Positions 5,076 through 37,637 of a stretch of DNA of 38,724 bases are shown in pieces; the stretch's first letter is position 1, and the number at the start of each line of letters is the position of its first letter. Both the position numbers and the translations under genes were made by a program. The DNA comes from Hydrogenophilales bacterium CG_4_10_14_3_um_filter_58_23 (GTDB lineage Bacteria > Pseudomonadota > Gammaproteobacteria > Burkholderiales > Sulfuricellaceae). The notes under the pieces are model-generated. The model was not told where the DNA came from. It saw nothing but the letters and a program-made list of their open reading frames with translations, and did not search any database. The stretch lies in contig PFJY01000096.1 in the NCBI GenBank assembly GCA_002784065.1, positions 1 to 38,724 of the forward strand. Direction: 5' to 3'.

Positions 5076-6017
5076 ATGAAGCTGCAACAGTTGCGCTACC
5101 TGTGCGAAGTGGCGAAACAGGGATTGAACGTCTCGGCGGCCGCGGAAAAGCTGTACACCTCCCAGCCCGGCGTGTCGAAGCAGATCCGGCTGCTGGAAGA
5201 AGAACTGGGAATCGATATCTTCGTCCGCAATGGCAAGCGGGTGACGGAAATCACCGAACCGGGGAAGGTGATACTCGCGATTGCGGAGCGCCTCCTGCGG
5301 GAGGCGGAAAATCTCAAACTGGCCGGCAAGGACTTCAGCAACGAAAGCAGCGGCAGCCTGGTGATCGCCACCACCCACACCCAAGCCCGCTACGCACTAC
5401 CCCAGACGGTCAAGGCCTTTGTGCTACGTTACCCCGGGGTGAATCTCGTCCTACACCAAGGAAACCCGACCCAGGTGGCGCAGAGGGTGGTGTCGGGCGA
5501 AGCCGACATCGCCATCGCCACGGAAACCATCGCCGAAGTGAAGGAACTGGTGAGCATGCCCTGCCACCAGTGGAGCCACGGCATCATTACCCCGCCCAAG
5601 CACCCGCTGCTGAAGGAAAAAACGCTCTCGCTGGAAGCTATTGCGCGCTATCCGATTGTCACCTATGACACCGCGTTCGCCGGTCGCTCGCGCATCAACC
5701 GCGCGTTCGAGCGCAAGGCGCTTACACCCAGGGTGGTTTTAACCGCCATCGACTCGGATGTGATCAAGACCTACGTGGAACTAGGCCTCGGCATCGGCAT
5801 CGTCGCCAGGATGGCGTTCGACCCGCAGAGTGACAAGGGCTTGCGTATGCTGAACGCCGATCACCTGTTCGAATCCAGCACCACGCGCATCGGCCTGCGC
5901 CACGGCGCCTACCTGCGCGGCTATGTGTACGAGTTCATCCACCTGTTCGCGCCGCATCTGACGCGCGATGTGGTGGACACCACCCTGCGCGGCGGCGGGG
6001 TGGATTTCGAGCTGTAG
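5076..6017 (+). CDS. CysB-family LysR-type transcriptional regulator
   Basis: MKLQQLRYLCEVAKQGLNVSAAAEKLYTSQPGVSKQIRLLEEELGIDIFVRNGKRV is typical CysB/Cbl. Confidence 0.92.
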   Translation: MKLQQLRYLCEVAKQGLNVSAAAEKLYTSQPGVSKQIRLLEEELGIDIFVRNGKRVTEITEPGKVILAIAERLLREAENLKLAGKDFSNESSGSLVIATTHTQARYALPQTVKAFVLRYPGVNLVLHQGNPTQVAQRVVSGEADIAIATETIAEVKELVSMPCHQWSHGIITPPKHPLLKEKTLSLEAIARYPIVTYDTAFAGRSRINRAFERKALTPRVVLTAIDSDVIKTYVELGLGIGIVARMAFDPQSDKGLRMLNADHLFESSTTRIGLRHGAYLRGYVYEFIHLFAPHLTRDVVDTTLRGGGVDFEL

Positions 6018-6047
6018 AATCCGGCGCCCGGTCGGAAGTGCGGATTA

Positions 6048-6446
6048 CTAGCAGGGCGGCACGACCCTGGAAGCAACCCGGCCATGTGCCTGCGCCACTT
6101 GCGCCACCGCCTCTTCAAGCGGCAAGCCCGCCTCCACCCCGTCCATGATCATGCGCTGCAGGATGGCGCCAAGCATCTCCACGTTGCCCTGGCCATGCTC
6201 CCGCAGTGCGCGCAAAAACATCAACATATTGATATCCGCGAACTGCTCCTCGAACTCGTCATAGTCCTTGCCGGTGGCAAGCCAGTAGCAAAGATCGTAG
6301 GCGAGTGCGAAAACTGCGTTCAACTGCTCTTCCCCGATACCTGGCACATTCAGGGATATTTCCTGCATCAGACCATGCCGAAAATCGTCCAGATCATAGT
6401 CCACTTCGCCTTTAACCACCTGCTGCGGTGTAAATTCCCATTCCAT
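6048..6446 (-). CDS. Hypothetical protein, start trimmed to MEWEFTPQ
   Basis: Acidic ORF in the same orientation as the molybdoenzyme operon; adjacent to the ferredoxin gene. Confidence 0.6.
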   Translation of the reverse strand: MEWEFTPQQVVKGEVDYDLDDFRHGLMQEISLNVPGIGEEQLNAVFALAYDLCYWLATGKDYDEFEEQFADINMLMFLRALREHGQGNVEMLGAILQRMIMDGVEAGLPLEEAVAQVAQAHGRVASRVVPPC

Positions 6447-8007: not shown

Positions 8008-8699
8008 GCCACATCCTTTTCTGCGGGTTCCAGTGCCTGGCGCAGGGCCAGCATCGCCGCTTCGTCGTAAAATTCGTTATCGGGAATGGCCAGATTTCTT
8101 GCCTGGCCGTACAGCACCCATGGTAGCAAATCCGCACCGAAGTCCGCCAGAGGGGTCAGGCACAGCCGGCTGCCGAACTGCTCCACCAGTTCGGCGCAAA
8201 GGTTGAGATCGGCGTCGTCGGCGATGTCCGCCCCCAGCAGTGCCAGAGAGGCGCCGCGCTCCAGCATCTGGCCAGTCCACCAGCCGGCTTCGGTGCCGCT
8301 GCGGCTGCCGTCGCTTTTCAGCACTTCCCAGGCCGGTTTGGCATAGGAGGGCGTGACGCATCTGAAATCGGCGTTGGAGGTGAAGTCCAGCGCCCAGTTG
8401 ACCTCCATGCGCCGCGCGGGAACCCATACCCCCACCCTCTCGGCGCCAAACTCCCTGCTCAGGGTCTCGATCAGGCTGCCGTCCAGCAGCGCGGCCTCGC
8501 CCGGCAGCACCCGCGCAGCGCCCCGTGCCAGCAACGCGCGGGCGCGTTCCCGCCCGGCGCTGCGCAGCACCACCGAGACGCGGGTCAGATCCTCGGGCAG
8601 ATCATCGCCATCAAACAGAAAAACAGGCTCCGCAAAAGGAACGCCTGCGGGTTTGGCCCAGCGGCGCAGGGTGATTTCCGGTGTGGATTCGTTCATCAA
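8004..8699 (-). CDS. Hypothetical protein, molybdoenzyme-associated
   Basis: 231-aa ORF overlapping its neighbours by 4 bp (translational coupling). Confidence 0.7.
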   Translation of the reverse strand: MMNESTPEITLRRWAKPAGVPFAEPVFLFDGDDLPEDLTRVSVVLRSAGRERARALLARGAARVLPGEAALLDGSLIETLSREFGAERVGVWVPARRMEVNWALDFTSNADFRCVTPSYAKPAWEVLKSDGSRSGTEAGWWTGQMLERGASLALLGADIADDADLNLCAELVEQFGSRLCLTPLADFGADLLPWVLYGQARNLAIPDNEFYDEAAMLALRQALEPAEKDVA

Positions 8700-31455: not shown

Positions 31456-31532
31456 CGGGGTGTAGCGTAGCCTGGTAGCGCGCCTGGTTTGGGACCAGGA
31501 TGTCGGGAGTTCGAATCTCTCCACCCCGACCA
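31456..31532 (+). tRNA. tRNA-Pro(TGG)
   Basis: CGGGGTGTAGCG...CTGGTTTGGGACCAGG...GTTCGAATC...CACCCCGACCA; anticodon TGG. Confidence 0.95.
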
Positions 31533-31548
31533 GGATTTGTCCGACAAT

Positions 31549-31625
31549 CTGCCCGTAGCTCAACCGGATAGAGCACCAGCCTTCTAAGCTGGGGGTTACA
31601 GGTTCGATTCCTGTCGGGCAGACCA
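31549..31625 (+). tRNA. tRNA-Arg(TCT)
   Basis: CTGCCCGTAGCTC...CAGCCTTCTAAGCTG...GGTTCGATTCC...CGGGCAGACCA; anticodon TCT. Confidence 0.95.
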
Positions 31626-31645
31626 GTTAGGTCTGTTTTATCAGT

Positions 31646-31722
31646 GGTGGCTGTAGCTCAGTTGGTAGAGTCCCGGATTGTGATTCCGGTTGTCGTGGGT
31701 TCGAGCCCCATCAGCCACCCCA
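31646..31722 (+). tRNA. tRNA-His(GTG)
   Basis: G(-1)GTGGCTGTAGCTC...CGGATTGTGATTCCG...GGTTCGAGCC...CAGCCACCCCA; anticodon GTG. Confidence 0.95.
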
Positions 31723-33972: not shown

Positions 33973-34301
33973 TTTTGGTCTCCTTGAGTTTGAGTCAATA
34001 ATTTGTCCATGTCCTGCTTCATCTTCTCCATTTCCTTACGTCGCTTCTCTTCTTTTGCCTTGACTTCATCCTTGGTCTGAGCCAGTTCACGGCTGGAGTC
34101 CTGGGCCTGCTTCTCCAGCGCCGGATCCGGCTTGCCAAGGGCTTCAGCAAACTCTGCGTCGAACTGCGCCTTATCTGCCTGCACCTGGGTTTGCTGGACC
34201 TTGTAATCATCGTGTTGGATATCGAAGGTTGTCAGGTACAGCCACGCAGCAAGAACGGCGGCTGGCGCGGCGATGAATACCCACAAAAGCCCCCCGTTCA
34301 T
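33969..34301 (-). CDS. Single-TM coiled-coil protein (hypothetical)
   Basis: N-terminal TM then charged helical region EVKAKEEKRRKEMEKMKQDMDKLL. Confidence 0.7.
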   Translation of the reverse strand: MNGGLLWVFIAAPAAVLAAWLYLTTFDIQHDDYKVQQTQVQADKAQFDAEFAEALGKPDPALEKQAQDSSRELAQTKDEVKAKEEKRRKEMEKMKQDMDKLLTQTQGDQK

Positions 34302-35029
34302 GCTTCACCTCCTTTCGGCCAGCTGTCGATGGAAAAAAACTTGAACGGGGCACGGTGCTTGTCTGCAAGTGCCACCTTGCCACCCGCCACGGTAACGGCC
34401 CTGACCGCCGCAAACGCCTTTTCCAGTCGTGCTTCCAGCCCCGGTGGAGTGAGGTAATGCACCTCTCCCCACTTCCCGGCCTTGATCTCCTGGAGGTAGG
34501 CGGCGATGATCTCGGCGTACCGCTTCGGCGTTTTGATGTGACGCTCAATTTCGATTGCAACCGATTTGCCATTCGGGCTTGTGGCCTGGGCGTCGGGTAC
34601 TTTTTTTAAGCCCGTGCCGTACAAAACTTTGCCAGGAATCCAATCGGCCCAGCCGGCATCTTCCGCTGCCAGGCGCACCTTCTGAGTGTCCAGGTGGTGG
34701 GGGATGTAGTTGGAATTGGTGCGGCCTAATTCGAAGAATGGACGGTCCTCAAAAACGTCCGAGAGAGCCAGGCCATGAGGTGTCACGCCCCAGAGCTGAA
34801 GGCGCCGCCCGTCGCAAAGGTGCGCCTCGGTTTTTAGCGCGCCTTGTTTTTGAAGGGATTGAAGGGTGCTTACTGCAACAGCCCGGCTAACGGACATCAC
34901 CTGGGCGGCAAGGTGGGTAGACGTATACACTTCGCCAGATGCAAGGAATTTCAGTAACAGTTGGCGCTTGGCATCGCGCCTGGCGTTGCGCTCAATGACG
35001 GTCATTTGTGGAGGTAGTTGTCGTGGCAT
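34298..35029 (-). CDS. wHTH protein with replication-relaxation/MobC-like C-terminal domain (tentative)
   Basis: N-terminal winged-helix-like region (LASGEVYTSTHLAAQVMSVSRAVAVSTLQSLQKQGAL) and VAIEIERHIKTPKRYAEIIAAYL segment. Confidence 0.6.
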   Translation of the reverse strand: MPRQLPPQMTVIERNARRDAKRQLLLKFLASGEVYTSTHLAAQVMSVSRAVAVSTLQSLQKQGALKTEAHLCDGRRLQLWGVTPHGLALSDVFEDRPFFELGRTNSNYIPHHLDTQKVRLAAEDAGWADWIPGKVLYGTGLKKVPDAQATSPNGKSVAIEIERHIKTPKRYAEIIAAYLQEIKAGKWGEVHYLTPPGLEARLEKAFAAVRAVTVAGGKVALADKHRAPFKFFSIDSWPKGGEA

Positions 35030-35109: not shown

Positions 35110-35427
35110 TTACACATCGTACCCATGGGAAATCAGCACTTGGTGCAGGTTTGCCGCTTCCCATGAACCCGGCCGAGTGATTACCATGCCGGCGTCTTCG
35201 GCTAGCATTGCCAGGAGTTGGGCAGGCGTCAGGGGGCCGTGAGTGGTGGCGCCGTTGCGTGTCTTGTCCGCCTCGCCACATGCCTTCGCCAAGTCTACTA
35301 AGGCTGCTGCGGTGGCCTCGCGGATTGTGATGGTGATGCGTTTCATCGCTGCCCTTTGGTGGGCCTCGGGGGTGCAGGGGGAACACCCTGCGTTGTTATC
35401 TGTGGTGCTGGTTGTTTTTGTTGCCAT
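35110..35427 (-). CDS. Small hypothetical protein (105 aa)
   Basis: RBS AAAAGGAG before ATG; body KRITITIREATAAALVDLAKACGEAD. Confidence 0.65.
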   Translation of the reverse strand: MATKTTSTTDNNAGCSPCTPEAHQRAAMKRITITIREATAAALVDLAKACGEADKTRNGATTHGPLTPAQLLAMLAEDAGMVITRPGSWEAANLHQVLISHGYDV

Positions 35428-35696
35428 GGTTGCTCTCCTTTTCTGTGATGTTCTGCCCTTCGGAGCCGCCTCAAAAAGGGCGGCCAGGGCTGGGCGTTCA
35501 GGCGGTTGCAAGCAGGCGTGACAGCCGGGGTTTCGAGGGTGCGGAATACCGGAACCGGGCGGCCTTTTGCCCGGTGAGGATATACCGCACCCTCGCCGGC
35601 TGGCGCGACTGCTTGCGCCTTTAACCGCCTGCCCAGCCCTGGACGCACTGGGCGGCTCCGAAGGGCAATCACAGAAAAGGTGAACGGCAACAAAAA
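35415..35696. repeat. ~280-bp nested long inverted repeat (giant hairpin/cruciform)
   Basis: Collinear nested complementary blocks of 11, 13, 16, 12, 8, 8, 7, 11 and 6 bp (coordinates in findings). Confidence 0.93.
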
Positions 35697-35912
35697 TTGT
35701 TTCCAGCGCCACGGCGCAGGGCCAGCCTCACCGGCCCGGCGCACCCAACGCGACGGCGCAGCCGTGGCGTTGCACAAAAAGGCCATCTTTGTTCCACACG
35801 ATCTCGCGGTTTTTTGCGAGATGGTGTGGAACCTAGCCAAGGCAAAACCAGCGCTTCAGAGTGATTAAAACCGGTAGTTTCTGTTTTCGATGAAATTCCC
35901 GCCGGGCTTTCG

Positions 35913-37637
35913 TTAAACATCGATCAGGCTCTCCCCTTTTGTTGGCGCTGGCGAATCGATTTCGATTGATTCCTCCGAGGTGGCGGCTTTATCGCCGGCC
36001 ACCTCATGGATTCTGACGGCCTCGACGTCCTTGGCTACTTTGATTGGCTGGATCGACACGAATTTTGGCAACCCATCGCCGTAGAGCACTGCAACAGATT
36101 TCGGAAGGTTCAAAAGCATGTTTGTATCTACGTAATACCGTTCGGATTGCCGAATTGTCCTTTCTGTATCCATCGTTTCAGCCAAGGCTACGTTTTTCTG
36201 TAGCCGGCGGGCTTCATCGTCCACCTGGACGGTGCCGCTCATCGTCGCCAACCATTCGGCTGTAGCGGGATTCATAACGCGGTAACACAGTTTGAGCCGG
36301 CAGTTTTCCACGATGCTGTCAACGACGGCATCGGGATCCAGATCCTTCGGACAGTCCCGGAGGTCGCCCAGGCTTTGATGCGCCAGGACAAGGTGAACTC
36401 CCTTATCACGGGCCGCGCCAAGCCCTTCTAAGGCTGGCCGACTCAGGTGGTACTTCACCTCATCAAGGACAACACAGACGGGACGCAACGGCCCGGCCAT
36501 TCGATCACGACGCTCTGCAAGCTGGATGAAGCGCACCAATAGCAGACGCTGAATGGTCTTCACGATGTCGTTTCTCATGCTGCCGACAAAATATACGACG
36601 CCCCCACTTTCCAGCATCTGCGCCAGATCCACCCCCTGCCCTGATTTCGCGTTGATGCTTAGCGTTTGGGCCAGCTCGCGCAATTTGCCTGCAAATTTTT
36701 CCGCGTCGGCAAGTTCTTCCATGTGGCCGGCAAAAACGGAAGCGGCGGTGCCATTTTCTTGAGCAAGCCATGCCGCAGCGCGGCCGGCTACCTGACGGTC
36801 GGCAATACCATAGAAATCCGAAGCGTCGCCCCGTTCGGACAGAGAAAAAGCGGCCATGAATAATTCATGAATCTCCTCCTTGCTTGCCCCTGAAAATGGA
36901 TTGATTTGTGGCGCATTGGGCGGATTGAGATTCACAAAATGGAACGGCACACCCAGTTTTTTGGCAGTGTGATAAAGCACATGTGGCGCCCATTCATCAT
37001 TTTTAGGATCGCAAAAAAACACTGTCTCGCCTCGGGCGAGAAATTGCGCAGCCATCACGCCCAAACTCACACCTTTACCCGCTCCGGTAGTTCCAACAAC
37101 TTGGGCGTGCGGCGCGCTAGTGCCGACTGGAAAGTCGATGTAAACAGGTTTTTTCTGCTCATCGAGTCCAAGGAAAAGCCCTTTTTTTTGATTGAAGTAA
37201 GGCACGGGATCAAACTGAAGAGACTTGGGCAGAAATTTCTCAATTTGACGAACATCGGTTTTTCGATTCCGTTCTAGGCTTGACCGAATGGTCAACCTGG
37301 ATTTCAGTTTTTCCAATCGCTGAACTCCGTACCTTAGCCAAACAATGACAACGGATAGGCCGATAAAAACAGAAGCCATCCAGAACAGAAAAGTTGAAAC
37401 AGGCATGTAAACATCTTTGGAAATAAGGTATTGAGAAGCCGATGGAATGAAGAAATACAACGTACCTGGCAATAGTCCGATACCACCGATTATCAACAGT
37501 AAATATTTCTTAAATTCGGCATCTTCTGGCTGATTCAATCCAAGAAGGATAGCACCGGAAAGAAACCCGTATGGATACAGAAATAGGAAAAGCCGCGCCA
37601 GTGAAACAACAATAAAAGTAAAAAAGGTATCGAACAT
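35913..37637 (-). CDS. Type IV secretion/conjugation coupling protein (TraD/VirD4-like ATPase)
   Basis: N-terminal TM segments; Walker A VVGTTGAGKGVSLG; FFCDPKNDEW; VCVVLDEVKYHLSRPALEGLGAARDKGVHLVLAHQSLGDL. Confidence 0.9.
   Translation of the reverse strand: MFDTFFTFIVVSLARLFLFLYPYGFLSGAILLGLNQPEDAEFKKYLLLIIGGIGLLPGTLYFFIPSASQYLISKDVYMPVSTFLFWMASVFIGLSVVIVWLRYGVQRLEKLKSRLTIRSSLERNRKTDVRQIEKFLPKSLQFDPVPYFNQKKGLFLGLDEQKKPVYIDFPVGTSAPHAQVVGTTGAGKGVSLGVMAAQFLARGETVFFCDPKNDEWAPHVLYHTAKKLGVPFHFVNLNPPNAPQINPFSGASKEEIHELFMAAFSLSERGDASDFYGIADRQVAGRAAAWLAQENGTAASVFAGHMEELADAEKFAGKLRELAQTLSINAKSGQGVDLAQMLESGGVVYFVGSMRNDIVKTIQRLLLVRFIQLAERRDRMAGPLRPVCVVLDEVKYHLSRPALEGLGAARDKGVHLVLAHQSLGDLRDCPKDLDPDAVVDSIVENCRLKLCYRVMNPATAEWLATMSGTVQVDDEARRLQKNVALAETMDTERTIRQSERYYVDTNMLLNLPKSVAVLYGDGLPKFVSIQPIKVAKDVEAVRIHEVAGDKAATSEESIEIDSPAPTKGESLIDV

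Follow-up and report, generated by a model that had tools for sequence, protein, structure and literature searches.

Transcription from hairpins folded in single-stranded DNA (ssDNA) is established for Frpo of the F plasmid and for ssi of ColIb (PMC11541004, PMC7736820). Such ssDNA promoters explain how the anti-defence genes of plasmids are expressed before the DNA becomes double-stranded. Candidates for Frpo-like sequences (Frpo') have been collected by BLAST against five known Frpo/ssi sequences, with a threshold of E 1e-6, combined with consensus -35/-10 elements (four islands; PMC11541004). The catalogues of ssDNA promoters considered here rest largely on BLAST comparison with a handful of F and ColIb sequences, and the hairpin described here lies below that horizon: in a comparison with F, its best match to the F region is 20 nt long, with E 0.027, below the Frpo criterion of E 1e-6.

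The giant hairpin and its surroundings

The stretch of DNA analysed here (38,724 nucleotides of contig PFJY01000096.1, from a genome of the Burkholderiales; hereafter, the window) contains, beside conjugation genes, a 282-bp near-palindrome (35415..35696; gene-sense strand, minus). A repeat finder recovered, at the same coordinates, all the nested complementary blocks that had been picked out by an earlier reading of the letters alone (hereafter, the sequence-only reading), most of them longer than listed there: 35415-35425/35686-35696, 35434-35449/35668-35683, 35454-35470/35651-35667 (17/17), 35477-35495/35631-35649, 35508-35528/35596-35616, and 35534-35560/35569-35595. The nesting thus stands, but the accompanying estimate of about 90 bp was too low, with 102 pairs in the consensus of three sequences and 118 in the window module; altogether, the giant hairpin comprises approximately 100-118 pairs, and its predicted active form is the single-stranded plus strand. 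Folding of 35400-35710 gave -213.8 kcal/mol (z -15.4) for the plus strand as RNA, -206.0 kcal/mol (z -16.7) for the minus strand as RNA, and -134.3 kcal/mol (z -20.0) for the plus strand as DNA, energies that no shuffle matched. The 3' arm includes, upstream of the ribosome-binding site (RBS), the start repeat GAGGCGGCTCCGAAGGGCAG (35453..35472, minus), which pairs with the 5' arm, and the apex is occupied by a variant of CGGCATATCCTC...CGGTATTCC (35543..35587, minus), a core common to plasmids and inoviruses. The hairpin is present in a single copy in its own genome (the search returned just the site itself, once per strand), which argues against a genomic repeat or a MITE.

One end of the hairpin runs into a gene. 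As the sequence-only reading had recognized, it covers the RBS and the start of a 105-aa ORF (35110..35427, minus), with the RBS GGAGA, the ATG at 35427, and codons 2-5 all inside the hairpin. The ORF consists of a 27-codon leader fused to an MKRITIT... domain and has no match in Pfam or NCBIfam. The leader (codons 1-27; 35347..35427, minus) is conserved as DNA, contains a small hairpin, GCAGGG...CCCTGC, and ends in a third repeat, GAGGCCCACCAAAGGGCAG.

The hairpin is, indeed, next to the coupling-protein gene, as originally described: the gene for a TraD/VirD4-like coupling protein (574 aa; 35913..37637, minus) lies upstream, and the gene for a MobC family replication-relaxation protein of the MOBC relaxase type (243 aa; 34298..35029, minus) lies downstream, on the same strand. 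The MobC protein matches NF041423 with E 1.2e-57 and 195 bits, below the cut-off of 200; a Pfam relaxase search of the same genome was negative. In L009, a contig of a Proteobacteria MAG, relatives of the coupling-protein and mobC genes are followed by the same hairpin and leader and, beyond the leader, by a toxin-antitoxin-like gene pair and a tyrosine-integrase-like ORF (both judged by reading). This makes it probable that the window element is integrated and mobilizable (or conjugative), of the MOBC type. A cluster of tRNA-Pro, tRNA-Arg, and tRNA-His genes (31456-31722) lies at what is presumed to be the border of the mobile element and is a possible integration site. Upstream of the giant hairpin, there is a second inverted repeat, with 17-nt arms that are 94% complementary (35791..35832, no strand assigned); its inner sequence is kept in L009 and in another related locus, L008, and it is a possible binding site for a relaxase, a regulator, or another protein.

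Recurrence of the module and selection on its pairing

A BLAST search with the region retrieved, from Burkholderia plasmids of the F type (MOBF, MPF_F), a 73%-identical patch that covers 14% of the query; in these plasmids, a giant hairpin likewise reaches and overruns the start codon. The conserved module consists of the giant hairpin, the RBS, the ATG, and a leader of approximately 30 codons that is conserved as DNA; its constants are an invariant GAGGCGGCTCC in the 3' arm and CCCCC-GAGGC-Y-CACC at the end of the leader. In beta-, gamma-, and alphaproteobacteria, conjugative plasmids carry such modules in their leading regions, and others stand in integrated elements. The genes behind the modules vary: they encode a 97-aa hypothetical protein, a ParB-like protein, DUF3560, or a DNA cytosine methyltransferase that is followed by ssb (P. 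aeruginosa and Agrobacterium, and also a Citrobacter plasmid); another is a small gene beside LPD29, and in Caballeronia, the gene is for an N6 methylase and has an antirestriction gene nearby. In the F-type plasmids, the module genes lie across the presumed oriT from mobF/traD and all point toward oriT, which is the layout of a leading region. Further copies were found in three more genomes of the order (4/400 including the window), one belonging to the same genus, and a 195-kb IMG/VR contig contains three. The family appears to be newly recognized: literature searches for the core sequence and for the leader peptide gave no description under these sequences. It would mark new leading regions and, with them, candidate anti-defence genes, including the 105-aa ORF.

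Different module proteins have one N-terminal peptide in common (for example, NAGVPPAPPEAHQxA, with the version NAGCSPCTPEAHQRA in the window); it might reflect a constraint on the DNA or serve as a tag. Across the family, the variable bases of the start repeat and of the third repeat (35348-35367 in the window) tend to match within each copy, with a mean of 3.2 matches out of 5 compared to 2.2 when permuted, and 0/20000 permutations were as good, in a statistic that ignores relatedness. The third repeat could compete with the start repeat for the 5' arm.

Some plasmids carry several copies of the module, each before a different gene, and the relaxases found with the modules belong to the MOBF, MOBP, and MOBC classes. 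These observations bear on the proposal, also made in the sequence-only reading, that the hairpin is an oriT or a structure bound by the relaxosome. Its position between the coupling-protein and mobC genes would suit this role; however, the copy number and the diversity of relaxases contradict one relaxase-specific site per element, and for an oriT, the second conserved repeat, at 35791-35832, is the better candidate. We consider an oriT very improbable. A search for a CloDF13-like nic site yielded just scattered matches with up to two mismatches.

The sequence-only reading had named a lack of homologues with compensatory changes as a ground for rejecting it, and folding and covariation analysis revealed both a strong fold and such changes. 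In ten Burkholderia copies, RNAalifold predicted 82 pairs, 16 of which are doubly compensated. The global alignment of window-type with Burkholderia-type sequences misplaced the 5' arm, and therefore, covariation across lineages was measured by arm swapping. Among 12 distinct modules, cognate arms reached a mean of -73.0 kcal/mol and swapped arms -50.3 kcal/mol, with the cognate arm the best in 11 of the 12; the arms were taken from each sequence's own fold, which gives some advantage to cognate pairs. The wide gap between cognate and swapped arms and the explicit double changes agree that the pairing is selected. Four further pairs, located in the middle and apical parts of the hairpin, are doubly compensated among the window, L008, and L009, and the base of the hairpin differs by lineage yet pairs, as TTTTTGTTGCC/GGCAACAAAAA in the window and as GTGTTTGCGCTC/GAGCGCAAACAC in L003 (plasmid pBCJ2315). 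The RBS and ATG are buried in 26/26 modules, with 23-36 of the 44 surrounding positions paired to the far arm.

The recurrence of the module before different genes, bounded by the paired repeats (the 0/20000 permutations above), could also be read as the trace of a MITE-like mobile cassette or a recent inverted duplication that has no function as a hairpin. Against this reading stand the single copy in the genome of origin and the occurrence in only 4 of the 400 genomes of the order, as well as arms that co-vary and show strand bias (see below), and we give it hardly any credence.

The strand signature and the apical core

In the consensus of the window, L008, and L009, the pairs that are broken in one sequence mostly read A.C or C.A on the gene-sense strand and, hence, G.T on the complement. 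The same asymmetry was observed for isolated mismatches on the gene-sense strand of 19 distinct modules, with 63 A.C versus 7 G.T and 46 C.T versus 5 A.G when wobble pairs were forbidden, whereas base composition predicts ratios of 1.16 (A.C/G.T) and 1.32 (C.T/A.G). The seven isolated mismatches in the window (four C.T, one A.C, one A.A, and one T.T) follow the family pattern. The p-value of 1e-12 for this bias is nominal, as the modules share descent, and a fairer figure is the agreement among modules: with DNA parameters, the template strand is more stable as DNA in 19/19, by a mean of -15.6 kcal/mol (11.3 in the window). Four hairpin regions in the leading region of plasmid F (-5.5 to -14.9), including two Frpo regions, show the same tendency, and five ordinary upstream regions of the window do not (+4.3 to -2.3). 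The mismatches in F itself (1x1: three A.C and no G.T; mixed under DNA parameters) are too few to judge.

G.T and G.A are the stable kinds of mismatch in DNA. The template strand bears G.T and G.A and the sense strand A.C and C.T; therefore, the wobbles are kept on the template strand. Deamination of C in exposed single-stranded DNA could add to the excess of G.T, but the C.T/A.G bias is not so explained. This strand signature is the strongest evidence that the structure, most likely, acts as single-stranded DNA on the template strand of the gene. It also provides a test that needs nothing but the letters: from the strand that bears the G.T and G.A mismatches, one can read off whether selection acts on a hairpin as ssDNA and, if so, on which of its strands.

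The same mismatches bear on the possibility of a sense-RNA regulator, that is, a leader RNA with double-stranded DNA as its template, whose folding would govern translation of the ORF. The burial of the RBS and ATG in all modules and the conservation of the leader at the DNA level are what such a regulator would lead one to expect. However, the mismatches of the sense strand are of the unstable kinds (A.C and C.T), the opposite of selection on RNA, and there is no Rfam match (the covariance models yielded tRNAs only in the window and none in eight related loci), so that we find this explanation quite unlikely. Thus, among the three options that the sequence-only reading had left side by side, the regulatory RNA is disfavoured by the strand-biased mismatches, and an accidental inverted duplication is rejected because of the co-variation of the arms across lineages; the ssDNA element is retained because of the compensatory changes, the recurrence before leading-region genes, and the strand-biased mismatch pattern.

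The apical core, CTTTCGCGGCATATCCTC...CGGTATTCCACG, is exact in L009, present as a variant in the window, and missing from several modules. A core-bearing query matched 263 plasmid records, and the core pattern was found in 52 IMG/VR stretches; the exact pattern occurs in 0/369 genomes of the class, and for this reason, the core is assigned mainly to mobile elements. It lies upstream of the DNA methyltransferase gene of pBCJ2315 (L003). According to the paper on the enzyme, M.BceJIII, a plasmid enzyme of the strain that harbors pBCJ2315, is single-strand-specific and silent in its native host; we infer that the L003 gene encodes this enzyme. In F, a match to the apical motif GCAAGGGTTCGCTTCGCC of the Caballeronia module (L093) lies ahead of the antirestriction gene.

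The core runs antisense to most genes in six contigs that were assigned to inoviruses by their Zot, secretin, TspB, or Rep genes, and in leading regions, it is in the same sense as the genes. On our reading, both orientations fit one rule, namely, that the template for RNA would be the strand that arrives in the cell as ssDNA; poor fits are the microvirus L045 (core in the same sense as the genes) and plasmids L017 and L019 (no same-sense gene behind the core). In the complementary-strand origin of the M13 type, host RNA polymerase makes the primer at a hairpin on the packaged strand, and the antisense core of the inoviruses resembles this arrangement; unlike that origin, the present hairpins are several times longer and overlap the gene start. 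The hairpins might be single-strand initiation sites only, in which the folded strand primes complementary-strand synthesis, as in ssi or phage minus-strand origins, and the position relative to genes is secondary. The orientation in inoviruses and the presence of the core in small MobV/RepL plasmids, for which priming is an obvious need, are consistent with this simpler role, but the giant modules always end on the RBS/ATG, their pairing tracks the start codon region, and the several copies per plasmid each stand ahead of a gene. We therefore deem initiation alone unlikely.

Several additional occurrences of the core were noted. Positions 6009-6060 and 8522-8557 of plasmid F (L044) show a degenerate core upstream of a DNA methylase gene and the Caballeronia-apex match upstream of the antirestriction gene. 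A second variant of the core, TTTTCC-CGGCATATCCTC...CGGTATTCC-AGTTCC, is present in the IMG/VR contigs L046-L074, in 1-4 copies per contig, mostly, in the same sense as the genes; a TATAAT-like box often follows some 45 nt downstream, with an ATG shortly behind it. Four small contigs (L023, L025, L033, and L036) that encode portal, terminase, or head proteins are, possibly, phage satellites; here, the core is antisense to most genes, and in L036, it adjoins a replication-initiation gene. The core also precedes an ArdC-like gene on the actinobacterial plasmid L018 (Cutibacterium pTZC1; 2021-2088) and is found on small MobV mobilizable plasmids, L015 (a 2.6-kb MobV/RepL plasmid of Salmonella) and L016.

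Proposed function and comparison with known systems

We regard it as likely that the ssDNA hairpin of the template strand is a promoter/initiator of the Frpo/ssi type that serves when the DNA enters the cell and has a probable second role as a lock on translation. In conjugation, the template (plus) strand would enter the recipient and fold into a duplex-like rod with bubbles, on which host RNA polymerase would start, as it does on Frpo/ssi of F and ColIb, and transcribe toward the ORF and, perhaps, mobC. The rod might also be a source of primers for second-strand synthesis and would be lost once the element becomes double-stranded. Transcripts begun inside the hairpin would lack the 5' arm and be translatable; read-through transcripts that include the 5' arm would fold, with the RBS and ATG buried, and translation would be kept off. 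Only the Burkholderia copies contain TTGCAC, followed after 16 nt by a conserved unpaired TAAAAC bubble and then by GCGTCGAGGCGG, and TTGCAC-16-TAAAAC is plausible as a -35/-10 pair. No canonical sigma-70 promoter was found in the window hairpin, which makes the promoter step least secure in this copy; its single terminator-like match, on the plus strand, is below the shuffle mean. If the proposed function is correct, the family extends the ssDNA-promoter mechanism to Burkholderiales, to Agrobacterium, and to an apparently integrated MOBC element.

More tentatively, and with the balance of our judgement against it, the module could be a portable 'entry switch', in which the hairpin is active as a promoter only in ssDNA, one arm buries the RBS and ATG in whatever transcripts arise from double-stranded DNA, and the third repeat of the conserved leader is able to exchange with the start repeat. 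Were this the case, unrelated plasmid genes would be expressed strictly at entry, in conjugative plasmids as well as in integrated mobilizable elements, by a cassette built around a core that is also found in filamentous phages.

Like Frpo (ssiD) of F and ssi2/ssi3 of ColIb-P9, the hairpins of this family are long stem-loops that, in the plasmids, lie upstream of leading-region genes. The Frpo/ssi stem-loop sits on the transferred strand, and in the window, the template strand would be the transferred one. Two regions of F, one ahead of ssb and one at 15.5 kb of L044, which are taken to be Frpo, share with the family the bias of stability toward the template strand, and a 33-nt box located directly before both recurs ahead of the giant hairpins in two relatives of the window hairpin, L003 and L008 (E 1e-6 to 2e-5, with the search confined to the F region). 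The leading-region layout fits in the F-type plasmids that bear modules, and the plasmid modules have methylase, ssb, and antirestriction neighbours in common with the Frpo/ssi systems. In other respects, the family differs from Frpo/ssi: the hairpin sequence is another one, with the window copy undetectable by BLAST and lacking a canonical -35/-10; the hairpin overruns the start codon in all modules; the leader is common to different proteins; and the window element is, apparently, an integrated one of the MOBC type. The Frpo' candidates (PMC11541004) are similar in being hairpins before anti-defence genes, with transcription from the T-strand; the difference lies in the criteria of that search, and individual candidates may overlap with the present family. 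The best reading, on sequence grounds, is that the hairpin would work like Frpo and that, by similarity to F, the window copy falls outside the catalogued set.
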